DNA of 57,501 bases from an uncultured Bacteroidales bacterium (lineage in GTDB: Bacteria; Bacteroidota; Bacteroidia; Bacteroidales; Muribaculaceae). Below, one piece after another: positions 4,555 to 34,184 of the stretch. The stretch's first letter is position 1. Each line of letters starts with the position of its first letter. Location: positions 1 to 57,501 of the forward strand of contig CADAFP010000011.1 of the NCBI GenBank assembly GCA_902787185.1, in the 5' to 3' direction. A program made the translations under genes and the position numbers. The notes under the pieces are model-generated. The model worked only from the letters and a program-made list of their open reading frames with translations, did not search any database and had not been told where the DNA came from.

Positions 4555-7500
4555 GTGGAGATACGGGAACTATGCGACATATTTAACCGGAAGGGGCGAC
4601 TGACGGCGTTATCCAAGTTGTTGGATGGCGGTGCTGGCAATGCGGTGATTGACGGGCTGGCAGGGTCCAGTGCGGCGATGCTGTTTGCGCGGCTGCCGCA
4701 GCGTGAGTGCCCCTATCTGATTGTCATGAACGACCTGGACGAGGCGGGGTATATGTACAACGACCTGTGTCAATTCGTGGGCGACAAGCAGGTGCTGATT
4801 TTCCCGTCGGGCTACAAGCGCGACATCAAGTATGGACAGGTGGATGCACCGAACGAGATTCTGCGTACCGAGGTGCTGAACCGTTGGTATGACGACAAGG
4901 ATGTGCGCTGGGTCGTCACCTACCCCGAGGCGTTGGCCCAGCGGGTGCGCCGCCGCGAGGACGTGGAGGCCAGCACCGTGCAGTTGAAGACTGGAGGCAC
5001 GGCCGACATGACCGAGGTGGCGGCACGGTTGCGCGAACTGGGCTTCACGGCGACCGACTACGTCTATGAGCCAGGCCAGTACAGCGTGCGCGGTTCCATC
5101 CTCGACGTGTTCTCTTACAGCAACGAACTGCCCTACCGCATCGACTTTTGGGGCGACGACATCGACTCGATACGCACCTTCAACGTCGAGACACAGTTGA
5201 GCGAGGAGCACCTGGAGCAAGTGAGCATCCTCAACAATGACACGGGCGGAGGCCGTGAGGATAACGTGTCATTGCTGGACTATGTGGGCGACGACACCAT
5301 CGTGCTGTGCCGCAGCGAGCAGTGGCTCACGGCGCGCATTGGCGAGATTGCCCGCGAAGGCATGTCGGTCAGCGCCCTCATCGCCGACGAGGGCGACACC
5401 CAAGCGACCAGCAAAGTGGTGGATGCCGACTTGTTTGTCCAGCGCCTGAACCAGTTGCGGCGCATCGCTTTTCAGGACAGCGAGGCCCCTGACGAGCGCG
5501 GCGTGAAGCGCCTGACGCTACACTGCAAGCCGCAGGGCATCTATCACAAGAATTTTGACCTCATCGGGCAGTCGTTTACCGATTTTTTAGCAAAAGGCTA
5601 TAAACTCATCATCCTGAGCGACAGCGCCAAGCAGATAGAACGCCTGCACAACATCTTTGAGGACCGCGGCGACGACATCACCTTTGAGCCCGTGCTGCGC
5701 ACGCTGCACGAGGGCTTTGTCGATGACGACCTGAAGTTGTGCGTCTTCACCGACCATCAGATATTTGACCGTTTCCACAAGTACAACCTCAAGAGCGACC
5801 GCGCCCGTTCGGGCAAGTTGGCCTTGTCGCTCAAGGAACTGAACCAGATAGAAAAGGGCGACTACATCGTCCACGAGGACCTGGGCGTGGGCAAGTTCGG
5901 CGGACTCATCCGCACCTCGATGAACGGCACGCCACAGGAAATGATCAAACTCACCTACCTCAACGGCGACGAAGCCTACGTCTCGATTCACTCGCTCCAC
6001 AAACTCTCGAAATACCGCAGCAAGGAGGGTGAGGCACCACGCCTGAACCGCTTGGGCAGCAACGCGTGGGCACGCATCAAGTCGCGCACCAAGAGCCGCC
6101 TCAAGGACATCGCCCGCGAACTCATCCGCCTGTATGCCGCACGTCGCGAGCAGCAGGGCTTCGCCTACACCCCCGACGGCTACCTTCAGCAGGAGTTGGA
6201 GGCCTCGTTCATCTATGAGGACACCCCCGACCAGCTGACCGCCACCCAAGCCGTCAAGGCCGACATGGAGAGCAGCAAGCCGATGGACCGCCTCATCTGC
6301 GGCGATGTGGGCTTCGGCAAGACCGAGATTGCCATCCGTGCCGCCTTCAAGGCCGCTACCGACAGCAAACAGACCGCAGTGCTGGTGCCCACCACCGTGC
6401 TGGCATTCCAGCACTGGCGCACCTTCAGCGAGCGCCTGCACGACTTCCCCGTCAGGGTGGATTACCTGAGCCGAGCCCGCAAGCCTAAGGAGGTGAAGCA
6501 GATTCTTGCCGACCTCAAGGAGGGCAAAATCGACATCCTCATCGGTACCCACAAACTCATCGGAAAGACCGTGGAGTTCCATGACTTGGGACTGCTGGTG
6601 GTGGATGAGGAGCAGAAATTTGGCGTCGCCGTCAAGGACAAGCTCAAGCAGATGAAACTCAACGTCGATACGTTGACGATGAGTGCCACGCCCATCCCGC
6701 GCACCCTGCAGTTCTCGCTAATGGGCGCGCGCGACCTGAGCACGCTGACTACCCCACCCGCCAACCGCTACCCCATCCTCACCACGGTGGGAACGCTGAA
6801 CGACGACATCGTCGCCGAGGCCATCAACTTCGAGCTGTCGCGCAACGGCCAGGTCTTTTTCGTCAACCACCGCATCGAGCAACTGGAGCAGTTGGAGAAC
6901 ATGATACACCGCGTGGTGCCTGATGCCCGCGTCGCCGTGGGACACGGCCAGATGCCACCCGAGCGGCTGGAACAGACCATCATCGACTTTGGCAACCACG
7001 ATTACGACGTGCTGCTCTCGACAACCATCATCGAGAACGGCATCGACATGCCCAACGTCAACACCATCATCATCAACAACGCCGACCGTTATGGCCTGAG
7101 CGACCTGCACCAGTTGCGTGGCCGCGTGGGACGCAGCAGCCGCAAGGCCTTCTGCTACCTGCTCGTGCCGCCGGGCAAGCCGCTGGCCACCGACGCACGC
7201 CGTCGCTTGCAGGCCATCGAGAGTTTCAGCGACCTGGGGGCCGGCATCCAGATTGCCATGCAGGACCTGGACATCCGCGGTGCGGGCAACCTGCTGGGCG
7301 CAGAGCAGAGCGGCTTCATTGCCGACCTGGGCTACGAGACCTACCAGCGTGTGCTCAAGGAGGCCGTCACCGAGTTGCGCAACGAGGAATTCTCGTCGCT
7401 GTTTAGCGCAACGGGCAACGGAGAAAACGGAGATGACGAATTGAACGGAGGGACGGAGTTTGTCACCGATTGCGTGGTCGATACCGACCTGGAACTGATG

Positions 7501-10199: not shown

Positions 10200-10742
10200 T
10201 CAATAGTTCTCGGCCTTGATCTGGAAGTAGGCCTGCGGATGGTTGCACACGGGGCACATCTCGGGAGCCTTCTTGCCAATGACCACATGGCCGCAGTTGG
10301 AGCACTGCCAGATGGTGTCACCGTCACGTGAGAAGACGATGTCCTGCTTGATGTTGTTCAACAACTTGAGGTAACGCTCCTCGTGCAGTTTCTCGATGGC
10401 GGCAACGCCTTCCATCTGGGCGGCAATCTCGTCAAAACCCTCCTCACGGGCCTCCTGAGCCATGCGCTTGTACATGTCGGTCCACTCGAAGTTCTCGCCT
10501 GCAGCGGCATCCTCCAGGTTCTCGATGGTGCCCTTCACAGCACCGCCCTGCAGATGCTTGAACCACAGTTTGGCGTGCTCCTTCTCCTGGTTGGCGGTCT
10601 CTTCAAAGATGGCAGCAATCTGCACATAGCCGTCCTTCTTGGCCTTGGATGCGTAATAGGTGTACTTGTTGCGAGCCTGGGATTCGCCAGCAAAGGCTTC
10701 CATCAGGTTCTTCTCGGTCTTGGTTCCTTTTAACTCTTTCAT
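10200..10742 (-). CDS. rbr: Rubrerythrin
   Basis: A 180-residue non-haem iron peroxidase that reduces hydrogen peroxide in the cytoplasm of anaerobes. The N-terminal four-helix ferritin-like domain carries the di-iron ligands ([47 protein letters not shown]). The C-terminal rubredoxin domain has two Cys pairs (CSNCGH and CPVCNH). Length is typical. A TATCTTTG promoter box lies on the minus strand at 10790-10797, about 48 bases upstream, so it is probably transcribed alone. Confidence 0.95.
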
Positions 10743-12012: not shown

Positions 12013-13032
12013 CTATTGAATCTTGAGGTCGGTAAAGAGTTTAATGCCACGCAGGTAATGGGCGGTGATGATGTTGACACGCTCCTCGGGCAGCTGGCGC
12101 AAGAGATTGACAGTGGGCTGTGAGGTGTAGCGGGAACGGTCGCGACGGAAGTCACGGTGGGCGCGGATGATGGCCCAGGCATCGCCAAAGTGGAATTTGG
12201 CCACTGCCATGCCGAAGGCTAACGTGTCCATCATGCGGCGCACCAGCAGCAAGCGCTTGCCCTCTTCGGCGGGGAGGTTTTTGTACAATAGCAGCAGGTT
12301 GTTGCGAAAGTTGAGGTAGGTCTTGCGTGGGTTGCCATAGGCCAAACTGCCGCCTCCCAGATGATAGACACAGCTCGACGGCACCATGGTCAAGTCATAG
12401 CCGGCAAGACGGATGCGCCAGCACAGGTCAATCTCTTCCATGTGGGCAAAGAAGTCCTTGTCCAGACCGCCCACATCATGATAGAGCTGGCTGCGCACCA
12501 TCAGGCAAGCCCCGCTGGCCCAAAAGACGCTCTTTGGGGCTCCGTCATACTGACCGTGATCATCCTCGACATACTCAAAAATGCGCCCCCTGCAATAGGG
12601 ATAGCCATGGCAGTCGATGTAGCCGCCTGCCGCACCCGCATACTCAAACGTCTGCTTGCCGTCCTCGTGGTCCTTGAGCAATTTGGGCATCACGGCACCC
12701 ACCTCGGGGTGAGCCTCCATGTAGTCATATAGAGGATTGAGCCAACCCTGCGGCGTGCGCACGTCGCCATTGAGGAGCACCGTGTAAGGGTACATCGTCT
12801 GGCCGATGGCCAGATTGTAACCCTCGGCAAAACCATGGTTCTTGTCAAATTTCAGCACTTTGACTTGAGGAAACTCCTCTTGCATCACCTTTAGGCTCTC
12901 GTCGGTGCTGCCGTTATCAGCGACAATGACATCGGCGATAGCGGCATCGGTGCCCGCCAGCACCGTGGGCAGATAGCGGCGCAGCAGTTTGGCACCGTTC
13001 CAATTTAATATGATGACAGCAACTGGTTTCAT
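12013..13032 (-). CDS. Family 2 glycosyltransferase (rhamnosyltransferase-like)
   Basis: A 339-residue GT-A glycosyltransferase that probably adds a sugar to a cell-surface polysaccharide. It shows the GT2 start (PVAVIILNWNGAKLLRRYL), the nucleotide-binding loop DNGSTDES, a DXD-like LLNGDVR and the acceptor-side motif FFAHMEEIDLCWRIRLAGY. The C-terminal part (RNNLLLLYKNLP onward) may contact the membrane. The first 30 codons exist a second time at 14103-14192, beyond the inserted DUF1016 gene. The duplicated segment covers the start codon and only four bases upstream of it, so the original promoter was probably displaced. Confidence 0.9.
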   Translation of the reverse strand: MKPVAVIILNWNGAKLLRRYLPTVLAGTDAAIADVIVADNGSTDESLKVMQEEFPQVKVLKFDKNHGFAEGYNLAIGQTMYPYTVLLNGDVRTPQGWLNPLYDYMEAHPEVGAVMPKLLKDHEDGKQTFEYAGAAGGYIDCHGYPYCRGRIFEYVEDDHGQYDGAPKSVFWASGACLMVRSQLYHDVGGLDKDFFAHMEEIDLCWRIRLAGYDLTMVPSSCVYHLGGGSLAYGNPRKTYLNFRNNLLLLYKNLPAEEGKRLLLVRRMMDTLAFGMAVAKFHFGDAWAIIRAHRDFRRDRSRYTSQPTVNLLRQLPEERVNIITAHYLRGIKLFTDLKIQ

Positions 13033-13036
13033 GCTT
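12943..13036. repeat. 94-bp direct repeat, copy 1 (glycosyltransferase 5' end)
   Basis: The first 30 codons of the glycosyltransferase plus four upstream bases. It matches 14103-14196 at 93 of 94 positions; the only difference is C at 12958 against G at 14118. The two copies lie 1160 bp apart in direct orientation and flank the DUF1016 gene. Confidence 0.97.
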
Positions 13037-13076: not shown

Positions 13077-14078
13077 TCAAATGGATTCCAGCAACTGCTT
13101 GAATTCCTCCTCGGTTGGCAGATACAATTTATAACGCGATGCAAAAATTTGTTTGCCTTCACTCAAAACAGAATATTTCACTATTGCCTCACTCTTTTGA
13201 GAACACAGTATTATACCCAATGTGGGATTATCATCTTCGTTGCGATAAAGTGCCTCAAACATGCGAATATAGCTATCCATCTGTCCGACATCTTCATGAG
13301 TCAGTTTACCCAATTTCAGGTCTATCAGCACATGACATTTAAGAATGCTATGATAGAAAACTAAATCAACATAGAAGTCTTCATCATCATACCGCATCCG
13401 TTTTTGGCGAGCAACAAAGCAGAAACCACGTCCCAATTCGAGTAAAAACTGTTGAAGGTGATCTATCAGGGCTTGTTCCAAAACATCCTCATGTAAAGAC
13501 GGATAATCTCTCAAATTCAAAAATTCCAACACAAATGGGTCCCTAATGAATTGCTGAGGGGCGATTTGTCCCATTTTTTCTTGGGCTTCACGCATGACTG
13601 GGTCTTTATCCCTGCTTGCCAACAGTCTTTCATAATAAAGGGAGGATATTTGCCTATCCAGTTGCCGCGTACTCCAAACGCCATCTGCCGCCTCATTCAT
13701 ATACCATAGTCGCGCCTGATTGTCCTCCACACTGATAAGGCGTCGGTAGTGTGACCACGTCAATTCGGGACGCAGTGTGTCCCGAATCTGGAATGTGAGA
13801 TAAAATTGACGCATTTTTCGCAATTCGCGTTCGTCAAAGCCCTTACCAAAATCCGCAGTAAGACGATTTGCCAGTTCTTTTAGTATCTTTTTGCCGTAGG
13901 CAGCGCGTGTCTCACCATGTTGTTCATGTTCTACTATGGTCTGACCTATCATCCAGTAGCTTTCTACCATCGCAAAATTAATGGCGTGATAAGTCTGTTT
14001 TCGAGCCCTCGCCAGAATGCTTTTGATACTATCATATATAGTATCGACGCTACTTGGTATTTTTTCTAACTCATTCAT
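13077..14078 (-). CDS. DUF1016 / YhcG-type PDDEXK nuclease-domain protein
   Basis: A 333-residue protein with the N-terminal DUF1016 helical domain (about 10-160, with ESYWMIGQTIVEHEQ and GFDERELRKMRQFYLTF). The C-terminal domain is a YhcG-type PD-(D/E)xK nuclease (about 170-330), with the catalytic-looking FYVDLVFYHSILKCHVLIDLK providing an Asp followed by D-L-K, then GQMDSYI. Members are frequent in mobile and defence regions, but their cellular role is not settled. The gene is more AT-rich than its neighbours and sits between two direct copies of the glycosyltransferase start, so it is an insertion. A 36-codon remnant ORF ends 3 bases before its ATG, which could allow translational coupling. 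Confidence 0.88.
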   Translation of the reverse strand: MNELEKIPSSVDTIYDSIKSILARARKQTYHAINFAMVESYWMIGQTIVEHEQHGETRAAYGKKILKELANRLTADFGKGFDERELRKMRQFYLTFQIRDTLRPELTWSHYRRLISVEDNQARLWYMNEAADGVWSTRQLDRQISSLYYERLLASRDKDPVMREAQEKMGQIAPQQFIRDPFVLEFLNLRDYPSLHEDVLEQALIDHLQQFLLELGRGFCFVARQKRMRYDDEDFYVDLVFYHSILKCHVLIDLKLGKLTHEDVGQMDSYIRMFEALYRNEDDNPTLGIILCSQKSEAIVKYSVLSEGKQIFASRYKLYLPTEEEFKQLLESI

Positions 14079-14081
14079 TGA

Positions 14082-14192
14082 TCAAATATCATGAATTATC
14101 TGGGCATCGGTGCCCGCGAGCACCGTGGGCAGATAGCGGCGCAGCAGTTTGGCACCGTTCCAATTTAATATGATGACAGCAACTGGTTTCAT
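14082..14192 (-). pseudogene. Truncated duplicate of glycosyltransferase start
   Basis: Starting at the ATG at 14192 this reads 30 codons identical to the glycosyltransferase N-terminus (MKPVAVIILNWNG to TVLAGTDA), then six unrelated codons and TGA. It is the upstream relic of the target gene left when the DUF1016 gene entered. It begins 9 bases after the ORF6N stop, which suggests the glycosyltransferase once followed ORF6N directly. Confidence 0.93.
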
Positions 14193-14196
14193 GCTT
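14103..14196. repeat. 94-bp direct repeat, copy 2
   Basis: Second copy of the glycosyltransferase 5' end; see 12943-13036. Outside the 94 bp the two flanks are unrelated. Confidence 0.97.
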
Positions 14197-22618: not shown

Positions 22619-22661
22619 AAACTACGAATTACGCTAATTATACTAATTGGCATCCGCATTC
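22619..22661. repeat. 43-bp terminal inverted repeat, left (GxxExxY cassette)
   Basis: This 43-bp sequence runs from AAACTACGAATTAC to GGCATCCGCATTC. Its reverse complement matches 23134-23176 at 39 of 43 positions with no gaps, and weaker similarity continues inward for about 20 bp. The outer word AAACTACGAATTACG also ends the repeats bounding the restriction island. Confidence 0.9.
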
Positions 22662-22714
22662 ATATTCTTTCTAATTTCACGAATTGACATTCATATATAG
22701 TTAATAAAAGAAAG

Positions 22715-23113
22715 CTATTCATGTGCTGTTTTATTGATATTGCAGAAACGTTCCGTTTTTAGACTGGTTTCGCCAAAATTAGCAAGGATACCCAATTCAT
22801 AGCCTGTCGCTTTCAGGTAATTGATAATTTGGGCTTTTTCAACATCAGATAACTTACTAATGGCTTTCAATTCGACAATAATCTTGCCGTAGCACACAAA
22901 ATCAGCGATATACTCTTGCTGTAAAGGAGTACCTCTATAATAAATCTTCAAATTGACCTCCCTTTGAAACGGAATTTCCTCAGCAATGAATTCGCGCTCT
23001 AAAGCTTCCTGGTAAACTTTCTCCAAAAATCCGCACCCCAACTCACGATGAACTCTCATCATGCAACCAATAATATTATATGACTCGCTCGGATAAATGA
23101 TCATCGTGTTCAT
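22715..23113 (-). CDS. GxxExxY family protein (PD-(D/E)xK fold)
   Basis: A 132-residue protein (129 if started at the ATG at 23104) with the family-naming motif GCGFLEKVYQEAL. The downstream pattern DFVCYGKIIVELKAI supplies Asp and E-L-K, the likely PD-(D/E)xK metal site, followed by QIINYLKATGYELGILANFG. The family is widespread and often multicopy, with no established function. The gene is AT-rich and is the only gene between two 43-bp inverted repeats, so it looks like a compact self-contained cassette inserted between the U32 gene and mutS. Confidence 0.9.
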   Translation of the reverse strand: MNTMIIYPSESYNIIGCMMRVHRELGCGFLEKVYQEALEREFIAEEIPFQREVNLKIYYRGTPLQQEYIADFVCYGKIIVELKAISKLSDVEKAQIINYLKATGYELGILANFGETSLKTERFCNINKTAHE

Positions 23114-23133
23114 TAGTCAAATTCGTTATAATT

Positions 23134-23176
23134 GAATGCGGATGCCAATCAGTTTAATTTGTGTAATTCGTAGTTT
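23134..23176. repeat. 43-bp terminal inverted repeat, right (GxxExxY cassette)
   Basis: Inverted partner of 22619-22661 (39/43 identical). It ends with GTAATTCGTAGTTT only 8 bases before the mutS stop codon. No convincing target-site duplication is seen outside the pair. Confidence 0.9.
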
Positions 23177-23184
23177 TTTAAAAT

Positions 23185-25806
23185 TTATCGTTGTTTCTTG
23201 CCGGTGAGGATGCCCTTGATGTCGTAGAGTTTGTTCAGGGCCTCCATGGGCGTGAGGTTGTTGATGTCGATGGTGAGGATTTCGTCGCGGATTTGACTCA
23301 GCACGGGGTCATCAAGCTGGAAGATGGACAGCTGATAGCCCGAGCGGCTGCTGGCGACGTCACCCAGGTCCTTGGTCAGGGCCGTGTCGTTGCGGTTGTT
23401 GGTCTCCAGCTGCTTGAGCACCTCGTTGGCGCGTGCGACGATGGTGGGCGGCATGCCGGCGAGTTTGGCGACGTGGATACCGAAGCTGTGCTCGCTGCCA
23501 CCCTTGACCAGCTGACGCACAAACACCACCTTGCCGTTGATTTCCTTCACACTCACGTTATAGTTCACGATGCGCTTGAAGGACTTCTCCATCTCGTTCA
23601 ACTCATGGTAATGGGTGGCAAACAGTGTCTTGGGCCTGGTGGCGTGCTCATGGATGTGCTCAACGATGCTCCAGGCAATGGAAATACCATCGTAGGTGCT
23701 CGTGCCACGGCCCAACTCGTCGAACAGGATAAGGCTCCTTTGACTCATGTTGTTGAGGATGGCGGCGGCCTCGGTCATCTCGACCATAAAGGTGGATTCG
23801 CCCAACGAGATGTTGTCGCTGGCACCCACACGGGTAAAAATCTTGTCCACGATGCCGATGCGCGCCTGCTGGGCCGGAACGAAGCTGCCCATCTGCGCCA
23901 TCAGGGTGATGAGCGCCGTTTGTCGCAGCAGTGCCGACTTACCCGCCATGTTGGGACCGGTGATGATGATGATCTGCTGGTCGTCGTTGCTCAGGCGAAT
24001 GCTGTTGGGCACATAGGTCTCGCCCGGCGGCAGCTGGCACTCGATGACGGGGTGTCGGCCCATGGCGATGTCGATGTCCAGGCTGTCGTCGAGCACGGGA
24101 CGGTTATAGCGATTCTCCATCGCCACACGTGTGAGTGCGTTCAGGCAGTCGAGCTGTGCGATGATGGCGCTATCGTTCTGGATGGCGGGGATATACTCTG
24201 TCACGGCGGTCACCAGTTCGTTGAACAGGCGGCTCTCGATGATGAGGATTTTCTCCTCGGCACCCAGAATCTTTTCCTCATATTCCTTGAGTTCCTGCGT
24301 CACATAGCGCTCGGCGTTGACCAGCGTCTGCTTGCGTATCCACTCCTCAGGCACCTTGTCCTTGTGGGTGTTGCGCACCTCGATATAGTAGCCGAACACG
24401 TTATTATATGATATCTTCAGGCTCGGGATGCCCGTTTGGTCGCTCAACGAGCGTTGCATGGCAATCAAGTAATCCTTGCCACTGCTCGAGATGTCGCGCA
24501 ATTCGTCAAGTTGCTCGTCCACGCCGCGGCAGATGACGTTGCCACGGTTGGTCTGATTGGGGGCATCAGGGTTAATCTCCCGCTCGATGCGGTCACGAAT
24601 GAGGGCGCAGGGATTCAACTGCTCGCCCAGGCTGCGCAACACCTCACACGACGACTGTTCGCAGTATTGCTTCATCGGCTCGATGGCCTGCAGGGCGCTC
24701 TTGAGCTGGACGAGCTCACGCGGCGTGATGCGTCCCACGGCGGCCTTTGACGTCAGGCGCTCCAGATCCCCTATCAGTTCCAGGCGCTCCCTCACCATAT
24801 CGCGCCCGTCGGGGTCACGCATGAAGTGCTCCACCACGTCGAGTCGGCGGTTGATGGCCTTGACGTCCTGCAGCGGGAACAGCACCCAGCGGCGCATCAT
24901 GCGGCCACCCATCGGCGAGATGGTGCGGTCGATGACGTCGAGCAGCGACTTGCCGTCGTCACTCATGGGGGCCACCAGCTCCAGGTTGCGGATGGTGAAC
25001 TTGTCGAGGCGTACATAGCGCTCAGCCTCGATGCGCGACAAGTGGGTGATGTGGCCCAACTGGGTGTGCTGGGTGATATCGAGGTAGTGCAGGATGGCAC
25101 CGCTGGCGATAATGGCGTTGTCCATGGCCGTGATGCCGAAGCCCTTGAGGTTCTGCGTCTCGAAATGCTTCAACAGGCGGTCGTTGGCCGAATCAAAGGT
25201 GAACACCCAGTCCTCCAGCTCAAACGTCAGGTAGCGCGACGAGAAGGTAGCGGCAAAGCGCTGACGGTTGCTGCGCTCGATGAGCACCTCCTTGGGCGAA
25301 AAATTGACCAACAGTTTATCGACATACTCCTCATTGCCCTCGGCGGTGAGAAATTCACCCGTGCTGATGTCGAGGAACGACACGCCCATCATCTTCTTGC
25401 CGAAGTGTACCGCCGCGAGCCAGTTGTTCTCCTTGCGGTCGAGCATCGTGCCGCCCACCACCACGCCAGGCGTCACCAGTTCGGTGATGCCGCGTTTCAC
25501 GAGCTTTTTGGTCAGCTTGGGGTCCTCCAGTTGGTCGCAGATGGCGACACGCTTGCCCGCGCGCACCAGCTTGGGCAGGTAGGTGTCCAGCGCATGGTGG
25601 GGGAAACCCGCCATCTCGGTCGCTGCCGCCGCTCCGTTGCTACGACGCGTCAGCGTGATGCCCAAGATTTCACTCGCCGTCACCGCATCCTCCAGATAGG
25701 TTTCATAGAAGTCTCCCACACGGAACAGCAGCACAGCGTCGGGATGCTTAGCCTTCATCTCGACAAACTGCTTCATCATCGGCGTATTCAACGGGTCCTT
25801 TGCCAT
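23185..25806 (-). CDS. mutS: DNA mismatch repair protein MutS
   Basis: An 873-residue mismatch-recognition ATPase. The N-terminal mismatch-binding domain ([20 protein letters not shown], then [10 protein letters not shown]) carries the conserved Phe-x-Glu region. The connector, lever and clamp domains are followed by the ATPase with Walker [15 protein letters not shown] (about 616-629), then [11 protein letters not shown] and [11 protein letters not shown]. It starts at the ATG at 25806. Both flanks are accessory DNA: the GxxExxY cassette abuts its 3' end and the restriction island's left repeat reaches its promoter. The gene itself is intact. Confidence 0.97.
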
Positions 25807-25834
25807 CGCTCACAAATCTTTATAAATCGAACTA

Positions 25835-26006
25835 CAAAGGTACAACATTTTTTTCAAACTACGAATTACGCCAATTCAACTACTTGAAAGCCTAACGTCT
25901 TTAAACAATAACAATAGCATCCGCTCTTTCTTATTTCTGTCGGCGAATTATGCGGATTAATCGAATGACTGCCGCACTAATCCCTAATCAGCAGCGCCAG
26001 CTGCTC
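25835..26006. repeat. Left inverted repeat of the restriction island (about 150-170 bp)
   Basis: Its reverse complement aligns with 32655-32849. Shared blocks include GAAAAAAA next to TAGTTT, GCGTAATTCGTAGTTT, TTTAAAGACGTT, GCGGATGCTATTG, CCGCATAATTCGCCGACAGA and GCAGCTG-x-CGCTGCT. Similarity is roughly 80 percent by eye, with a ~16-bp gap. The outermost part includes a minus-strand TACCTTTG box at 25835-25842 that fits the mutS promoter. Confidence 0.85.
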
Positions 26007-26060
26007 CATTAAAAAATGACCGCCGTCTCGTAAAGAAAGAAAAGCCTTCACACTAAGTCG

Positions 26061-28208
26061 TTAATTTGCTTTATACAACTCTTCAAGGGTCGCATATTGG
26101 GCATCATAACGGGTTGAGGGGATATATTCCTTTTTGCGGCTATCCACGAGTGTGGCATCAAGTTCTTGTGTGTCAATGTCAACAATGACGTAGATAGTGG
26201 TAGTGTTAACGTTCTTGTAACGGTCGGTTTCCAACTCGCCATCCGATTTCACGGCGCAGTTCCCTTTCACCTTGAATAAATGCTGACCTTCATCGCTTCT
26301 AACGTGGAAAAGAACATAACCAATGGTGTTCAGGTGTTCGACAATCTCCATCGAGTCCCGAGTGTACTTGATGCCAATGGCCAGTTCCCCTCTCTCGAGA
26401 AATAACAAACTCTTGATATAGTAGTTTTCCATCATCACCATCAACACGCCGTTCTTGTTGGGCAGATTGACCACGGCTCTTTGGCCAGACGTGGCTTGTT
26501 CCAGAATCTGCTCGGGTTTCTCGCCAAGATTACATTCCTCAACGAAGAAATACTTGCGCAACTCTCCTAACAGGTGCTCGTTTTCCTCGGCCTCCTTGTT
26601 ATGCAGGGCTAGTGAGAAAATGTTTTCATCGGCAAAAGGAGTGAACGTCTTGCCCAGTACATCCCTGAAGTGGGTTTGGAAATACTCCTTGGCGTCCACA
26701 CCTTGACGAGGCGCCATGGCATAGAACTGATAGTCGTCCTGCAGCCATTTCTGGATTTCTTCACGAAACTTATTGCGGATTTTGACTTTCCAGGCGGCCT
26801 TTTGACTTGCATTGTTTCGGGCATACAGGGCCAGCACAAACAGGAAATTCACGTCATAGTGGAACAACAGCAGCGTGTCACGGTCAAACAGGCGGTTCTT
26901 GAAGTGTGACTGGCTGTGACGATTATCCTCGCGGTCGGTTTTCTCGATGCCGTCGGTCGTGTAGTCAAAGCCCTCGTCCATTTTGGCCGAAATGAAGAAA
27001 TTGGGGATGATGTTGTAGCCCTCAGTCACGTCGTCACGCAACTTGACACCCGACTTTGTCGTGTTGCCGGCATTGAAGATGTCGAGGTTCCACTGAATGA
27101 CGTTGCGGGCATAGGTGTACTGCTTGTAGATGGATTCGTTGCCCAACTTATGACCCATCTTGTAATACTTGCTGTCACCGATGTAGTAGGTGTTGCTGTG
27201 GTCGTTCTCGATAAGGCTCTTGGCCGTGTAGAGGTGGTCAACAATCTTGCCGTCCTCCTGTTTCTTGTCCATGCCGTCGGGCAGCGGATTGTCACCCACA
27301 AGTTCGTCGATGATGGCCTCAAACACGATGTAGAAATTCTTGACCAGCAGATATTCCTTCTTGGCAGTATTGATGGAGACCTGACGCGCCTCGTCAAAGA
27401 AGGCAAAGCACAGTCGCCACAATTCCAATGCCTTGTCGCTAAAGTATTTGTACTTGATTTGCAACAGGCGTGTCTTGCCATAGCCCTTCAGATAGGTCTC
27501 AAAGCGCCTGCCAGTAATAAGGTCATACTGGCAATTTATCTCTATCGGGAAACCGTATTTATTACCGATATGGTTCAAGATAGAGAAGAAGATGACCAAC
27601 AACTCCTCGTCAAAGTTGATGCGGCGCTTCTTGTTGATGGGATTCAGATAAACAGGACTGTTGTCCTGAACGATGGCCGTTTCGCGGCTGATGGTGCGCG
27701 TCCAGTTAATCTTGTTCAATCCCGCATGCAGGTTCTTGAGGATAAAGAAGAAAAAGTCCTGGTTATCCCTGTTGAACTGCAACAGCTGCAACAGGATATC
27801 GAGGTAGGTGTTGCTCAAGCGCCGCCGTCCCTTGCCGATCTCAGCAATCTTGGTGTGATAGACAATATCGGGGTCGCAGTTACGGGAATTCTTATAGACC
27901 ATGATGGCTCGGTAAATCCACACGGCAAACTTATAGAGGAAGTCACGCTCGTCTTTTTCCAGCATTTGGGGATCAAGACTGACGATGTCCTCAGGGCTGT
28001 ATTTCCCGAAGGCCAATTCTCGCCCGCCAACATCCTTGAGCAGCACCTTGGGCAGGATAAAGACACAGTCCTTTAGCAGGGTATTGTAGTAATACCCCAC
28101 ATAGTGGATAGACACCTGGCCCTCAACGTTCTCCAGGGCATCAATACCATGCAGCACGTCCCTCACCCGCGCCACGTCATACCGATATTCCTCAATGAGA
28201 ATCCTCAT
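26061..28208 (-). CDS. LlaJI-family restriction endonuclease (McrC-like partner)
   Basis: A 715-residue protein. The N-terminal half matches the pattern of LlaJI-type R2 endonucleases: GLNKINWTRTI (about 160-170), DNSPVYLNPINKK and FYIVFEAIIDELVGD. It then has TYYIGDSKYYKMG (about 340-352), whose D-x-K resembles the PD-(D/E)xK site 'DAKYY' of the family. The C-terminal ~250 residues are unrecognised. In LlaJI the endonuclease works with a McrB-like NTPase; here one lies in the same operon, but no methyltransferase is seen, so a modification-dependent (type IV-like) role is inferred. The ATG at 28208 is supported because the first ten codons occur again at 29388-29417 directly after the McrB stop. 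Confidence 0.75.
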   Translation of the reverse strand: MRILIEEYRYDVARVRDVLHGIDALENVEGQVSIHYVGYYYNTLLKDCVFILPKVLLKDVGGRELAFGKYSPEDIVSLDPQMLEKDERDFLYKFAVWIYRAIMVYKNSRNCDPDIVYHTKIAEIGKGRRRLSNTYLDILLQLLQFNRDNQDFFFFILKNLHAGLNKINWTRTISRETAIVQDNSPVYLNPINKKRRINFDEELLVIFFSILNHIGNKYGFPIEINCQYDLITGRRFETYLKGYGKTRLLQIKYKYFSDKALELWRLCFAFFDEARQVSINTAKKEYLLVKNFYIVFEAIIDELVGDNPLPDGMDKKQEDGKIVDHLYTAKSLIENDHSNTYYIGDSKYYKMGHKLGNESIYKQYTYARNVIQWNLDIFNAGNTTKSGVKLRDDVTEGYNIIPNFFISAKMDEGFDYTTDGIEKTDREDNRHSQSHFKNRLFDRDTLLLFHYDVNFLFVLALYARNNASQKAAWKVKIRNKFREEIQKWLQDDYQFYAMAPRQGVDAKEYFQTHFRDVLGKTFTPFADENIFSLALHNKEAEENEHLLGELRKYFFVEECNLGEKPEQILEQATSGQRAVVNLPNKNGVLMVMMENYYIKSLLFLERGELAIGIKYTRDSMEIVEHLNTIGYVLFHVRSDEGQHLFKVKGNCAVKSDGELETDRYKNVNTTTIYVIVDIDTQELDATLVDSRKKEYIPSTRYDAQYATLEELYKAN
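28179..28208. repeat. 30-bp direct repeat, copy 1 (endonuclease start)
   Basis: The first ten codons of the endonuclease (MRILIEEYRY). It matches 29388-29417 at 29 of 30 positions, and the copies are 1209 bp apart, flanking the RhuM gene. Confidence 0.95.
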
Positions 28209-28216
28209 GTTTAGTG

Positions 28217-29341
28217 TTACTTACCCAATAATCCATCCAACTCATCGTCAAAGTCCGACCTGAATAACCTGTCCTGAACAATGCGGTATTTCTCAAATTC
28301 CGATTCAGCAAATTGCTTTGCAGCGGCTGCCGAAACGCTACCGCTGTCTTGCAGTAACTGGCGGTCATCCATTGCCAAGAACTTGTCGATGTGCTTTGCC
28401 CAGTCTTCCATCGTCATGGGAATGTGTCGCTTGGCACGATCTTCGGCCAAATCCAGGAAAGCGTTGACAACGCGTCCCAAGCTCTCCAACTCATCGCCCT
28501 TCAAGTAGTTCTTAGCAACAGACACATCAGTCTTGACAATCTTACCGGATGGGGCGTTTTCCCACGTGGTAAGCCCCATGTGCTCTTTGTCAGCATCAGC
28601 GCGTTCCACAATCAATTCTGCTGCGGTGTGGCCATGTATGGCATAATGGAGTTTGTTCTGCACCATGGCAAAAAATCGACGTGTCGTAGGTGCATCCTTG
28701 TTATAGTCGATGGCGGTGGCATACAAGTCAGTCACCTTTTGATACAATCGACGCTCGCTTATGCGGATTTCCCGAATTTCGGCAAGCAGGTGCTCAAAAT
28801 AGTCAACCGTCAAGAAGGCTCCGTTCTCCATTCGCTTCTTGTCAATCACATAGCCACGGATAGCAAACTGACGGAGTACCGCAGTCGCCCATTGACGGAA
28901 CTGCGTGGCGCGGGTAGAGTTAGCCCGGTAACCGACCGAAATGATAGCGTCCAAGTTATAGAATTGGGTCTCATATGCCTTCCCATCGGTGGCAGTTCGT
29001 CGGAATTTCCGACAAACTGTATCTTTCTGTAACTCACCCTCTTTAAAAATATTCTGCAGATGCTCAGCTATCGTTGATCGGCTTTTATCGAATAAGGCCG
29101 CTATGGCGTCCTGAGTACACCAAATTGTCTCATCACGATACATCACCTCAACGCCGTTCTCTTGACTCTGCGCTTGGAAAATCAAGAATTCAGCGGTACT
29201 GTTCCTGATCATCAGGGATTGTGAGGATGAAGGATTGATTCTCCATTCACAATCACAATCCAGACAGCGAAACTCGCCGTTCTCCTCTCGAATGTTCTGC
29301 GATTGGCACCTTGGACAAGATATGTCTTTATAGTCAGTCAT
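28217..29341 (-). CDS. RhuM family protein with N-terminal zinc ribbon
   Basis: A 374-residue protein. Residues about 55-330 match the RhuM family: EVMYRDETIWCTQDAIAALF, STIAEHLQNIFKEGEL, VCRKFRR, YNLDAIISVGYRANS and RATQFRQWAT. RhuM proteins occur in pathogenicity and defence islands without a proven function. The N-terminus adds a predicted zinc ribbon with Cys9/Cys12 and Cys26/Cys29 (SCPRC and RCLDCDC), which is unusual for the family as I know it. The gene sits between the McrB-like and endonuclease genes and is flanked by duplicated codons of the latter, so it is a later insertion. It ends 8 bases before the endonuclease start. Confidence 0.87.
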   Translation of the reverse strand: MTDYKDISCPRCQSQNIREENGEFRCLDCDCEWRINPSSSQSLMIRNSTAEFLIFQAQSQENGVEVMYRDETIWCTQDAIAALFDKSRSTIAEHLQNIFKEGELQKDTVCRKFRRTATDGKAYETQFYNLDAIISVGYRANSTRATQFRQWATAVLRQFAIRGYVIDKKRMENGAFLTVDYFEHLLAEIREIRISERRLYQKVTDLYATAIDYNKDAPTTRRFFAMVQNKLHYAIHGHTAAELIVERADADKEHMGLTTWENAPSGKIVKTDVSVAKNYLKGDELESLGRVVNAFLDLAEDRAKRHIPMTMEDWAKHIDKFLAMDDRQLLQDSGSVSAAAAKQFAESEFEKYRIVQDRLFRSDFDDELDGLLGK

Positions 29342-29360
29342 TCGTTTATTGCATTATTCA

Positions 29361-29417
29361 TTATATGCATGTATCTTCGCTTGAGATATACCGATATTCC
29401 TCTATGAGAATCCTCAT
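29361..29417 (-). pseudogene. Remnant of endonuclease 5' end
   Basis: The McrB stop and an ATG overlap here as TAATG. From that ATG the frame reads MRILIEEYRY, identical to the endonuclease start 1.2 kb downstream, then eight unrelated codons and TAA. It shows that the endonuclease gene was originally coupled directly to the McrB-like gene before RhuM entered. Confidence 0.92.
29388..29417. repeat. 30-bp direct repeat, copy 2
   Basis: Partner of 28179-28208; the only mismatch is T at 29402 against A at 28193. Confidence 0.95.
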
Positions 29418-31234
29418 TAGTTTATCTTCTCGATATGGATGCCCCAGTCTTGGGCATTGACTTTCTCAATAAAGTCGTTGATGCGCTCGACCGTGAATTG
29501 ATTGCTAACATAGACCGATTCTCCATTAGGCAATGATAAGTAAAATGACCTTTGGTCAAATTGAGGATCATTTCCTCTTCTTGCCTCGTGTTGCTCTTGA
29601 GTTTCTACTAGATTACTTCTCTTTATTCCTAATCCCATCCATATATCAACGATTTCCTTTGCTGTCATTTCAGGATGCGATTGAACATAATTCATAACGC
29701 ATTCAACGGGAAGCCTTCTTTTATTGAAACTGCCTTGGCCATTGATTGAATACTTTGAACGGTCTTTACCATCTGAGTTTTCATTGGCTCCTCCAGAGCC
29801 AGAGGTGCCCTCATCTTCTTCGGGGATAAAAACCTCGTTCTCTTCCTCGGCAAATTTCACTCCGAGGTTGGTCAAGAAGATGTCAACTTTGCTCTCACGG
29901 ACGGCGGGCCTGCCATCACCATCGGTACGGTAGAATTTGTCGAATGTGAGTTTGGACTCTTTGTCCTCGTCGATGAAGACGTCGCCCTCAAATTCAAAGT
30001 CCTTAAACACATCATTCCACAGGTAGAAGATAACCTTGCTTACAAAGGTCTCGGCTGTGATAACGTCATCAGTGGTCTTGCAGAAGAAATAGCCCAGTTT
30101 CTTGTCCTCGCTGTTGGTGGTGTCACCAATCAAGGCATTAATCTTCTCCAAGAAGTCCCACCAGTCATAGTCCTTTCCATAGACATGGATTTTCCAGCCC
30201 TTGCCCGCATTGGCGATGGGCACATACTGCCAGTCCCAGCGGCGCTTGAAGGCGCTGTCAATCGGGAACAGGCTTTGGTCGCTGGTGTTCATCGTGGCCC
30301 AGATATACAAGTTGGGAGGCAACAGCAATATGTTGCCATTCCTAATCTTCAACGCCACTTTTTCAGAAGTCATTTCACCAACGGCTGGTACGTTCAGAAA
30401 CGCCATATTCTCAAATGACTTGGCCAGTTGCTTCTGCAAATCCTTGTCAGCGACGATGGGATATTCCGAGAAACCATTATCGCCACGGTCAAGCAGTTGG
30501 AACAGGTCGCCAAAGATTTGGGCACAATTACCGCGGTTGATTTCCTCAATTACAAGATATACATCTTTCGGCTTTTTACCTTCATCTGTTGCACTAGCAT
30601 ATTTTTTCCAAGCCTTTACATAAGCCTGCAAGAAAGCTTGTTCCACGAACTCATAGACGATGCGTTCCTCGGTAATTTCATTACCGTCTTCATCTTTCAC
30701 ATTGATAGCTTTACCACCAAAATTAGAGATGACAGGAAATTCCTTGGTCGTCGGCTTATAGCAACCCACAAAAGTCGAGTAGTCACTGTCAGGATGGAAT
30801 GTCGTGCGAATCACCTCATCGCCCTTAGTCAGTTCTTTGATGGCAAATGACTTACCCGTACCAGGAGCACCATAGAAAATCTGCTGTAGAGACTGGCCTG
30901 GCCTGTTTACTGGAGTCACAGCAACTGTTTTCCTTATGTTGGCGTATTGTAAAGCCATTTTTGCCAAAACAGTCAACGTAGAAGCATAACCATATTCAAA
31001 TCTATCAATATCGCTTGTACCTGATAACGCATCACGAGCCTGATTCGCATTTGAATCTGGATGTTGTTCAATATATTGTACAAATTCTTTGAGAAGTGCC
31101 TTTGAGATGGTTCTTATACCGACTGCACCTTTGCTTTCAGACCTAACCAGATAACACAATCTATCTTCATCAATTATCGTAACCTGACCATTATCTGATA
31201 CGTCACTGACACGAAGAGAAAAAACAATATCCAT
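29417..31234 (-). CDS. McrB-like AAA+ NTPase
   Basis: A 605-residue motor subunit of a McrBC/LlaJI-type system. The AAA+ core has Walker A FYGAPGTGKS (about 118-128), Walker B VYLVIEEINRGN (about 225-236), the McrB-type signature ATMNTSDQS (about 312-320) and the arginine finger region FKRRWDW. McrB homologues use GTP or ATP; which is used here cannot be read. After an acidic Gly/Ser linker (about 475-500), a separate C-terminal domain follows (KYSINGQGSFNKRRLPVECV to NDFIEKVNAQDWGIHI), perhaps winged-helix DNA- or substrate-reading. It starts 11 bases after the membrane-protein gene, within one operon. Confidence 0.87.
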   Translation of the reverse strand: MDIVFSLRVSDVSDNGQVTIIDEDRLCYLVRSESKGAVGIRTISKALLKEFVQYIEQHPDSNANQARDALSGTSDIDRFEYGYASTLTVLAKMALQYANIRKTVAVTPVNRPGQSLQQIFYGAPGTGKSFAIKELTKGDEVIRTTFHPDSDYSTFVGCYKPTTKEFPVISNFGGKAINVKDEDGNEITEERIVYEFVEQAFLQAYVKAWKKYASATDEGKKPKDVYLVIEEINRGNCAQIFGDLFQLLDRGDNGFSEYPIVADKDLQKQLAKSFENMAFLNVPAVGEMTSEKVALKIRNGNILLLPPNLYIWATMNTSDQSLFPIDSAFKRRWDWQYVPIANAGKGWKIHVYGKDYDWWDFLEKINALIGDTTNSEDKKLGYFFCKTTDDVITAETFVSKVIFYLWNDVFKDFEFEGDVFIDEDKESKLTFDKFYRTDGDGRPAVRESKVDIFLTNLGVKFAEEENEVFIPEEDEGTSGSGGANENSDGKDRSKYSINGQGSFNKRRLPVECVMNYVQSHPEMTAKEIVDIWMGLGIKRSNLVETQEQHEARRGNDPQFDQRSFYLSLPNGESVYVSNQFTVERINDFIEKVNAQDWGIHIEKIN

Positions 31235-31245
31235 AATACAAATTA

Positions 31246-32172
31246 TTACTCAACTTCATTATTATCATTACTTTCTTCCTCAGGAGCATATACTTCAAAC
31301 ATAATTAAATAGCATTTGTCAGATGTGCATCTGTCGATAGCCTCAACCAATAAATCATTCTTAATATTATCTTGAAGTGTATTCTTAATATCTATTAAAT
31401 TATTGAATTTTGATTGATTAATTGCCTTAAGATATGCAGTCAAAATATCAACTTTGTTAAATGGAGCACTATCAATAGAAAGGGCATCGCAAATATCTTT
31501 TGTAGATTTTATAATATCACATTTGAAGGCACATCGAGCTGCATAATCAAAGTCTTGGACAATCTCATCTCTCAATTCATCATCGAGAATTGATTGGAAT
31601 AAAAAGTGCTGAAATAATAAGAGTCGATAGAGGTTCTGTTCTTTTTCAAACATATATTCCCGAACTTCTTCTTTTAATCCACGATGCTTAAGAAATGCAT
31701 CTTTCAAGTAGTCAAAACTTTTACTATTAAGACTGCGAGCCATAAGGAGGTCTGATAGGTTTGAAATGTCGCGAGGTTCATCAACCAGTCGCTTAAGGAG
31801 AGCATTCGTTTCCTCTTGCTGCAATCTTTTATACAAGCCACTTAAATCGCTCTGGATTTTTTGATCTGTTTCCTCAATTTTATTAGCTAACTCTCGAATA
31901 GTTCTGTCTTTTATCTCAACATTTCTATTCATTTCAGACACTCTGTTTTTGAGATAAGTAATATAATAACCTATTCCCAGTCCAAATACTGTAACTACAA
32001 TTGTACAAACTACAAGAAGAGTATTCACGGCACTAATTTCATTAGCAATAGTGTCGTTGGAAATGTCTATTATTCTATTTATTCGCTCAATGTCGTCATT
32101 GATCTCTTGTATGAATCGAATAGAATCAGTCGTAATGAATTTTAAAAGGGGCACTTGGATTACAGTTAACAT
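31246..32172 (-). CDS. Membrane-anchored coiled-coil protein of the restriction operon (unrecognised)
   Basis: 308 residues and no family recognised. It has a helical N-terminus (about 1-48), one clear membrane segment (TLLVVCTIVVTVFGLGIGYY, about 51-72) and a coiled coil (about 75-125, NRNVEIKDRTIRELANKIEE). A mostly helical, possibly repeat-like C-terminal region (about 130-295) precedes an acidic tail. The gene is the most AT-rich in the window, in sharp contrast to tyrS and mutS. As first gene of the operon, 11 bases before the McrB-like gene, it is a candidate sensor or effector that ties the nuclease complex to the inner membrane; that is inference. Confidence 0.7.
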   Translation of the reverse strand: MLTVIQVPLLKFITTDSIRFIQEINDDIERINRIIDISNDTIANEISAVNTLLVVCTIVVTVFGLGIGYYITYLKNRVSEMNRNVEIKDRTIRELANKIEETDQKIQSDLSGLYKRLQQEETNALLKRLVDEPRDISNLSDLLMARSLNSKSFDYLKDAFLKHRGLKEEVREYMFEKEQNLYRLLLFQHFLFQSILDDELRDEIVQDFDYAARCAFKCDIIKSTKDICDALSIDSAPFNKVDILTAYLKAINQSKFNNLIDIKNTLQDNIKNDLLVEAIDRCTSDKCYLIMFEVYAPEEESNDNNEVE

Positions 32173-32654
32173 ATTGTTATATCGAAATTAAAGATATTGT
32201 GACTATTTATATAAAAACCAAACTCCAATGTAGCCCAGCGAGCCGACCAAAGCTCATAACTACAAAGGAGTTTGTGTTGTATTATTCTATGTTGATTGGT
32301 CGTCGGCTGGTATAGCGATGGCAAAGATAATCATTTTTCTTGAAAATGTCATCATCATCTATAGATGATGCCAAAAACTACCATTGCTATCACGCTGCAA
32401 AGGTAGCGCAAAGGTGTGCCAAAATCGTGGCACTAGAAAAAGGAAAAAAACTTAAATATTCGCCAAGTCAAATGTCTTTCCCTAGAAAATGTTGGCAGAT
32501 TTGAGAGCGATTAACTGAGTTGGTTTACACTAATTTTATCGTTCGCCTAAACTGGGTTGACAGTTTCGCGGTTCCTTCGTCAAATCCGCATAATTCGCCG
32601 ACAGAAAAAAGCGAGGGCGGATGCCTATCAGAAATATCAGAGAAATCCGTAGTT
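32173..32654. promoter_or_regulatory. Regulatory region of the restriction operon with nested dyads
   Basis: About 480 bases without a gene. Minus-strand promoter boxes are at 32322-32329 (CAAAGATA) and 32398-32405 (CAAAGGTA). Two interlocked dyads lie between them and the operon start: arms 32220-32233/32260-32273 (AAACTCCAATGTAG, 12/14) and 32235-32250/32296-32310 (core GCCGACCAA). These could be operator or attenuator structures. At 32577-32622 there is an extra partial copy of the island repeat (CCGCATAATTCGCCGACAGA). Confidence 0.45.
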
Positions 32655-32849
32655 GAAGCAGCTGACGCTGCTAATCAGTGATTAGCGGTTAGTGAACAAG
32701 GCGGCAGCCATTCGTCTAATCCGCATAATTCGCCGACAGAAAGGAGAAAGAGCGCGGATGCTATTGTCATTCTTGTTGTTTAAAGACGTTGGGCATTCAA
32801 GTTGTTTTGTTTGCGTAATTCGTAGTTTGAAAAAAAGTTGTATCTTTGT
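32655..32849. repeat. Right inverted repeat of the restriction island (about 174-195 bp)
   Basis: Inverted partner of 25835-26006. It contains the GCAGC/GCTGC mini-hairpin, the CCGCATAATTCGCCGACAGA block, GCGGATGCTATTG and the outer end GCGTAATTCGTAGTTT. The last 20 bp run into TATCTTTG (32841-32848), the probable -7 box of tyrS. Confidence 0.85.
32841..32848 (+). promoter_or_regulatory. -7 box of tyrS
   Basis: TATCTTTG lies 43 bases before the tyrS ATG and is embedded in the outer end of the island's right inverted repeat. Confidence 0.6.
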
Positions 32850-32891
32850 GGCTCCATCAGATAACAATTAATCAATAACGATAAAGAAACG

Positions 32892-34184
32892 ATGAATTTT
32901 GTAGAAGAACTGAAATGGCGCGGCATGATCAATGACATCATGCCTGGTGCCGAGGAGCAACTCAACAAGGAAATGACCAGTGGCTATGTGGGCATCGACC
33001 CGACAGCCGACTCACTGCACATCGGCCACCTGGTGGGCGTGATGATGCTCAAGCACCTGCAGCGCGCGGGACATCGTCCCATCGCCCTGATTGGCGGTGC
33101 GACGGGTATGATTGGCGACCCCTCGATGAAGTCGCAGGAGCGCAAGCTCATCGACGAGGAGACGCTGCGTCACAACCAGGAGTGCATTCGCAAGCAGCTG
33201 GCCAAGTTCCTGGACTTTGACAGCGACGCTCCCAACCATGCCATCGTGGTCAACAACTATGACTGGATGAAGAACTTCACCTTCCTGAGCTTCATCCGCG
33301 ACATCGGCAAGCATATCACCGTCAACTACATGATGGCCAAGGACAGCGTGAAGAAACGTCTGGCCGCCAACGCCGACCACGGCATGTCGTTCACCGAGTT
33401 TTCCTATCAGTTGCTCCAGGGCTACGACTTCCTGTACCTCTATGAGCACGAGGGCTGCAGGCTGCAGATGGGCGGCAGCGACCAGTGGGGCAACATCACC
33501 ACGGGTACCGAGTTGATTCGCCGCATCAACGGCGGTGAGGCCTACGCCATCACCTGCCCGCTCATCACCAAGAGCGACGGCACCAAGTTCGGCAAGACCG
33601 AGGGTGGCAACGTGTGGCTCGACCCCCAGCGCACCTCGCCCTACAAGTTCTACCAGTTCTGGATCAACGTGAGCGACGAGGATGCCAAGAAGTATATCAA
33701 GATCTTCACCGACCTGCCCCAGGACGAGATTGAAGAGCTGATTGCTGAGCAGGAGAAGGATCCCGGCCTGCGCCCGCTGCAAAAGCGCCTCGCCAAGGAA
33801 ATCACCACCATGGTACACAGCGCCGAGGACTACGAGATGGCTGTCGAGGCTTCACAGATTCTTTTCTCTAACAAGGCCAAGGACATCCTGCACAAGATTG
33901 ATGAGGAGACGCTGCTCAACGTGTTTGAAGGCGTTCCCCAGTTCGAGGTACCCCGCAGCGCCATCGACGAGGGCACTCCGCTCATCTCGTTGCTGACCGA
34001 CGTGGCTGCCGTCTTCCCCAGCAAGGGCGAGATGCGCAAACTCACCCAGGGCGGCGGCGTGAGCGTCAACAAGGAGAAGGTGGCCGACCCCAACATGCCT
34101 GCCAGCCCCGACATGCTGCTCAACGGCAAGTACATCCTCGCCCAGAAGGGCAAGAAGAACTACTACCTGCTGATTGTCAAGTAA
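32892..34184 (+). CDS. tyrS: Tyrosyl-tRNA synthetase
   Basis: A 430-residue class I aminoacyl-tRNA synthetase that charges tRNA-Tyr. It has the HIGH motif (HIGHL, about 43-47), the TyrRS tyrosine site ([14 protein letters not shown] and [15 protein letters not shown]) and the KMSKS-equivalent [10 protein letters not shown] (about 232-241). The C-terminal S4-like RNA-binding domain starts near [10 protein letters not shown]. Length is normal. A terminator hairpin follows immediately. Confidence 0.97.

Follow-up and report, generated by a model that had tools for sequence, protein, structure and literature searches.

A 57,501-nucleotide stretch from an uncultured Bacteroidales bacterium of the Muribaculaceae (contig CADAFP010000011.1, assembly GCA_902787185.1; hereafter the window) holds, between the divergent genes mutS and tyrS, a restriction-like operon framed by two long imperfect inverted repeats, which we call the arms. 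This island is an insertion relative to related genomes, because the mutS-tyrS site is empty in 7 of 40 relatives, and its outer ends belong to a dispersed repeat family that also bounds a GxxExxY gene on the other side of mutS. The features of the island and its two neighbours, in window coordinates, are:

23185-25806, minus strand: mutS, left neighbour (Pfam)
25856-26008, minus strand: left arm, with AAACTACGAATTACGC at its outer edge, a blastn match to the right arm and an exact family end at 25856-25869
26061-28208, minus strand: P1, a 715-amino-acid (aa) McrC/R2.LlaJI-like nuclease candidate (invariant residues in a 23-sequence alignment)
28179-28213, plus strand: first copy of a direct repeat, over the start-codon region of P1 (92% over 37 bp with 29388-29424)
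28217-29341, minus strand: RhuM family protein (PF13310, Pfam E 1.5e-108; PADLOC candidate PDC-S05)
29388-29424, plus strand: second copy of the direct repeat, a duplicate of the P1 start beyond the RhuM gene (92% over 37 bp)
29417-31234, minus strand: McrB-like AAA+ subunit (AAA_5, E 1.2e-6; McrB-type PDB chains)
31246-32172, minus strand: 308-aa protein with a hydrophobic stretch (no family match)
32576-32624, plus strand: further, incomplete copy of the arm's inner portion (86% identity to 32711-32761 over 51 bp)
32654-32828, plus strand: right arm, terminating in GCGTAATTCGTAGTTT, with a blastn match to the left arm and an exact family end at 32815-32828
32892-34184, plus strand: tyrS, right neighbour (Pfam)

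The long imperfect inverted repeats that the original prediction placed at both edges were confirmed by pairwise alignment. With the reverse complement of 25781-26060 as blastn query against the whole window, 25826-26008 aligns with the reverse complement of 32654-32857 at 78.5% identity over 205 bp (E 5.8e-45), the top of three inverted pairs at E ≤ 1e-6, and a chance origin is ruled out by a local alignment score of 194, where 500 composition shuffles reached 28 at most. The same query also matches 32583-32624, a partial further copy, and the window holds three copies of CCGCATAATTCGCCGACAGA (25936 on the minus strand, 32586 and 32721 on the plus strand) where none is expected. At their outermost edge the arms carry TTTG...TAnnTTTG, which we take to be a promoter motif and which is present, by eye, in the divergent mutS and tyrS promoters of three relatives; the similarity there is in part promoter sequence. 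The promoters of two divergent genes were nevertheless rejected as a full account, since they cover the outermost bases only. Within the arms, self-match at a 9-bp lag is 0.35, against 0.257 in composition shuffles (equalled in 1 of 2000). Among the matches listed, the arms resemble each other over ∼200 bp far more than they resemble any other sequence: in the other 100 genus genomes (E 1e-8, best eight candidates or fewer per genome) the longest match spans 76 of 176 query bases, and both arms together are found in none. Rfam gave no match over 25700-33000 at E 0.5, and hence no known structured RNA in the island.

The outer 24-36 bp of the arms match a dispersed family with ends AAACTACGAATTAC...GTAATTCGTAGTTT. 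The outer end of both arms, GTAATTCGTAGTTT, has 11 exact copies in this genome, two of which bound the island (6973 bp) and two a 558-bp GxxExxY stretch; exact copies occur in 41 of the 101 genus genomes, up to 58 in one, and the reversed control pattern has one match in each of two genomes. Terminal inverted repeats (TIRs) common to dispersed copies, as in TIR elements or miniature inverted-repeat transposable elements (MITEs), are thus observed. Nine short copies from three relatives measure 62-75 bp in seven cases and 122 and 151 bp in the others, and both of the short members that were folded as DNA form near-perfect hairpins (z -7.07 and -9.82). In contrast, neither arm is a hairpin when folded alone (z -0.58 and 0.07), which suggests that each arm is one half of a single element and not a small copy in its own right. 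With 153 and 175 bp and no long open reading frame (ORF) of its own, neither arm is the complete insertion sequence that forms each end of a composite transposon. Elsewhere in the family, a relative carries two tandem arrays of family ends with a period of 80-83 bp and five copies each (G055:C8:11397-11738 and G055:C19:33991-34333). In the genome studied here, GCGGATGCC connects blocks of differing short repeats in mosaic intergenic sequence (L205-L232), and GCGGATGCCNAT has 28 matches against two for the reversed pattern, some of them apparently within genes.

The longer end sequence GCGTAATTCGTAGTTT is exact at 22619 and 25856 on the minus strand and at 32813 on the plus strand, and has one mismatch at 23161 on the plus strand. 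It therefore bounds a second gene besides both island edges, a point absent from the original prediction. That gene adjoins the 3' end of mutS within a second element:

22619-23176, no strand assigned: second element with the ends of the island, 558 bp, with an inverted repeat 22619-22684 / 23112-23176 around the GxxExxY gene
22715-23113, minus strand: GxxExxY protein (TIGR04256; PF13366, PD-(D/E)XK nuclease superfamily; family matches)

The two ends of this element match each other at 83% over 66 bp (E 4e-11). In blastn they are matched by outer stretches of both arms, 36 and 26 bp long in the left arm and 24 and 25 bp long in the right. This genome also has three two-ended gene-less copies (107-163 bp) and a one-ended copy. 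All four have 58-76 bp in common with the right end of the GxxExxY element, and three of them also have 14-31 nt in common with its left end; they look as internal deletion derivatives of the GxxExxY element would. The U32-mutS junction varies among the relatives: as here, G036 and G037 have a GxxExxY gene between island-type ends, G044 has a hairpin-like copy of ∼60 bp whose ends have diverged, G033 and G026 contain other genes, and no feature could be recognised in G025 or G007.

A search with tyrS gave matches in 56 of 61 genus genomes, and the sequence upstream of tyrS was examined in 40 of these, some stretches being short. In the seven with an empty site, mutS is the divergent neighbour of tyrS at a distance of 133-210 bp, without island or repeat; in the other 33, mutS does not adjoin tyrS within the stretch examined. 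The promoters of G007, G036 and G037 are separated solely by CAAAC-14 bp-G(T/C)AGTTTG, and by eye both island edges coincide with these two points, the exact edge bases being ambiguous; the other four empty-site relatives have a different intergenic sequence. Two unrelated insertions of opposite orientation in one 14-bp gap would be a coincidence, which favours one element. Presence and absence at orthologous sites, as for a TIR element or MITE, are therefore observed at both junctions, with mutS-tyrS empty in seven relatives and U32-mutS variously filled. On the far side, the two ORFs downstream of tyrS have no match beside tyrS in 29 relatives, so synteny is not established there. Of the variants foreseen for this site by the original prediction, the empty site was found, but in 0 of 7 cases with a single repeat; different cargo was found at the next junction, U32-mutS, and not at mutS-tyrS itself; and the inverted orientation was seen in none of the seven.

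The arms enclose four main genes, all in minus-strand orientation, which encode the 308-aa protein, the McrB-like AAA protein, RhuM and P1. The island is AT-rich and lies between mutS and tyrS, as originally described, with a GC content per kb of 0.33-0.50 compared with 0.53-0.60 for the kilobases that cover mutS and the beginning of tyrS. The McrB-like protein matches McrB-type PDB chains over a short stretch (best E 3.7e-12) and would provide the McrB-like subunit of an McrBC/LlaJI-like system. In P1, residues E297, D301, D345 and K347 (D345-S-K347) are invariant across 23 aligned sequences and resemble a PD-(D/E)XK centre, which suggests that P1 is a nuclease. It gave no Pfam match at cut-off, no NCBIfam match and no PADLOC family, a profile search against solved structures found no match, and its AlphaFold model is poor (predicted local distance difference test score, pLDDT, 54). 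The 308-aa protein may span the membrane, judging its hydrophobic stretch by eye.

A scan of the GTDB collection for P1 homologues gave 34 loci, with an McrB-like match as well in 31 and only a piece of P1 in the remaining three. In 18 of the 34, including L109, the source of the query, a C5-methyltransferase match lies in the examined stretch, often of low identity and sometimes not adjacent. The same L109 query found no match in the window at E 1e-10, other methyltransferase types and the rest of the genome lying outside the search, and in this respect the associated methyltransferases of a LlaJI-type system were not detected. The operon is probably McrBC/LlaJI-like and would restrict foreign DNA. 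A plasmid origin of the cargo was set aside, the sole lead being a distant Pedobacter plasmid match (33.7%, 68% of P1).

The RhuM gene stands between both restriction-subunit genes, and the 37-bp direct repeat resembles the trace of a RhuM insertion accompanied by duplication; this duplication of the P1 start was not seen in four relatives with RhuM. The same pattern is seen in a 94-bp direct repeat (99%; 12943-13036 / 14103-14196), the start of a glycosyltransferase-like gene, which lies on both sides of a 333-aa ORF (13077-14078) that presumably encodes a PDDEXK/DUF1016-type protein.

Consistent with the original prediction, Pfam, PADLOC and NCBIfam searches of the four main proteins revealed no transposase or integrase, two of the proteins matching no Pfam or PADLOC family. 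The island thus shows no enzyme of an autonomous transposon, and the two family-less proteins could hide a novel one. Nor is a GxxExxY gene found among the four, and 0 of the 5 GxxExxY matches in this genome fall in the island.

We tentatively favour the reading that the island is a single non-autonomous element, with ends of the dispersed GxxExxY-associated family, which occupies the interval from the mutS promoter to the divergent tyrS promoter, with the McrBC/LlaJI-like operon as its cargo. The empty sites, the 200 bp shared by the arms, the half-element character of each arm and the way both edges fit a single gap of 14 bp make one element the likeliest account. Such an element would have arrived in one event, its ends would be acted on, now or formerly, in trans by machinery including the GxxExxY nuclease-like protein, and the operon would act as an McrBC-type motor nuclease. 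The operon may have been carried along between the ends, which may have moved it, or may have been inserted later into a resident repeat. Recognition of the ends in trans, as originally suggested, is conceivable in that the family has a gene-bearing member elsewhere on the contig.

Several observations weigh against the single-element reading. The island is found in this one genome, with no second carrier, and inspection by eye revealed no target-site duplication at the nine short copies. The 9-bp periodicity of the arms is level with their self-match at a 3-bp lag (0.358). End orientation was counted in 20 of the 41 genomes that have matches, from lists of their ends of which one is incomplete: between neighbours closer than 1 kb, the ends point outward in 24 cases, inward in one and in the same direction in 30, and at 1-12 kb they point outward in four (the island included), inward in six and in the same direction in 17. 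The three other long outward pairs enclose ordinary-looking genes, read from their translations as a protease-like gene (L244), a BspA-like gene (L233), and sppA, lpxK, purine nucleoside phosphorylase and thiL (L245). As long outward pairs are not enriched and hold such genes, end orientation alone proves nothing for the island. Strong inverted repeats flank the homologous operon in 2 of the 34 loci and in 2 of 13 genus loci (one contig, L093 = L192 by length and positions, being common to both sets and some loci incomplete); with a slightly stricter E-value cut-off, 5 of 40 control stretches have them; the notion that the operon generally travels with such repeats is not borne out. The arms of the island themselves occur in 0 of the 34 operon loci (E 1e-3), and the nearest relative by P1 and RhuM (L093/L192) sits between repeats of different sequence, a case in which the cargo has not travelled with the arms.

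In the main rival reading, a long-armed hairpin-type repeat already lay between mutS and tyrS when the operon came into its middle by another route, either illegitimate or homologous recombination, and the repeats are bystanders that mark a tolerated site. Cargo-free short copies are common and both folded ones are hairpins, the cargo family is mostly without such repeats, and long outward pairs are not enriched. However, a repeat without cargo was found at mutS-tyrS in 0 of 7 relatives, and no cargo-free copy with 200-bp arms was found in the other 100 genomes (among the best eight candidates or fewer in each), and we consider this course of events somewhat unlikely. Alternatively, the rearrangement that brought the cargo may have placed an inverted copy of a mosaic repeat, resident beside one promoter, next to the other promoter. 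The far closer similarity of the arms to each other than to any other sequence listed, and the frequency of mosaic intergenic repeats in this genome, would agree with such a duplication in place; it is improbable given that the edges meet both promoters symmetrically, each with an exact family end. Two independent insertions of dispersed repeats, facing each other around the operon by chance, are quite improbable: the family is dispersed and numerous both here and in relatives, and in the relative L091 a different repeat, made of short repeats, forms a matched inverted pair (113 bp, 93%; 4606-4716 / 10341-10453) around ordinary-looking chromosomal genes, but two hits within ∼14 ancestral bp would be required, the arms alone are not hairpins, and their block order is identical over 200 bp.

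Overall, the observation of a repeat-bounded island is confirmed and its interpretation as mobile is partly supported, because empty sites exist, no recombinase was recognised and the end family has a gene-bearing member nearby. Scattering of the repeats without a link to cargo, which had been named as evidence to the contrary, is partly what is seen, the family being dispersed with 11 exact ends in the genome. Movement of the operon by its ends would connect the spread of defence genes with a very common gene family without known function; without such movement, mirrored flanks and gene-free copies still provide a concrete lead on GxxExxY genes.

GxxExxY matches were found in 89 of the 101 genus genomes, in 74 of 148 sampled across the phylum, and five times in this genome. 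Their flanks were compared with those of 523 small ORFs from relatives, using one locus per genome among the best family scores, with 25 of 30 genus loci and 28 of 30 phylum loci usable (5 and 2 incomplete). A control of mismatched pairs was confounded by closely related loci. The flanks are mirrored at or above the 95th percentile of controls in 5/5 loci of this genome, 25/25 of the genus and 26/28 of the phylum, and at the 99th percentile in 3/5, 16/25 and 9/28. The top-scoring controls were a RAYT-like transposase gene (read from its translation), which is a fitting positive control, and three GxxExxY genes. Within the mirrored segments, self-match is highest at a lag of 9 bp both in this genome (0.42) and in the genus (0.407), against 0.278 at that lag in tyrS controls, and the repeated 9-mer varies between elements, by eye. 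In the phylum set the peak lies at 10 bp (0.341, with 0.313 at 9 bp). Of 30 phylum-sampled genes (L162-L191), seven were viewed, mostly lying between mirrored short repeats that vary by element, for example CACAGAG-type or GCAAAG-type arrays.

It is possible, if unlikely, that GxxExxY (TIGR04256/PF13366) genes mark a widespread, unnamed transposon-like class with mirrored-array ends (period 9-10 bp), hairpin derivatives and larger cargo mobilised in trans, of which the mutS-tyrS island would be a cargo-bearing non-autonomous member. The peak at 10 rather than 9 bp in the phylum set lowered the probability that we assign to such a class. No description linking GxxExxY genes to mirrored repeats or mobility was found in a literature search covering few subscription journals and no preprints.

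Restriction systems carried on transposons or islands exist, and the island resembles them as a defence operon between core genes and bounded by repeats; it differs in that no recombinase is recognised inside and that its transfer as a unit is hypothetical. Like REP (repetitive extragenic palindromic) elements with RAYT (Y1) transposases, the present family consists of dispersed hairpins tied to one small gene that lies between copies of the same repeat; unlike RAYT, GxxExxY belongs to the PD-(D/E)XK nuclease superfamily rather than Y1, and the ends are arrays with a period of ∼9 bp. As described (PMC1459862), LlaJI is a type II, McrBC-like system with methyltransferases, in which R1.LlaJI is McrB-like and R2.LlaJI carries PD...D/EXK. 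Similar to LlaJI and to McrBC (type IV), the operon pairs an McrB-like AAA gene with a partner gene encoding invariant residues that resemble a PD-(D/E)XK centre, and related loci, the query locus included, share the C5-methyltransferase match with LlaJI in 18 of 34 cases. It differs in that RhuM stands between the subunits, that a gene for a putative membrane-type protein lies ahead of the subunit genes, that the window has no L109-type C5-methyltransferase match and that P1 matches no family model. BrickBuilt of Porphyromonas gingivalis is, as described (PMC4596501), a MITE that is short and dispersed, with inverted-repeat ends, no transposase inside and a location near promoters. Members of the family described here are similarly short, dispersed, promoter-proximal and transposase-free with inverted-repeat ends; unlike BrickBuilt and other MITEs, its gene-bearing member holds a GxxExxY gene, and the island would be a 7-kb member with restriction cargo.

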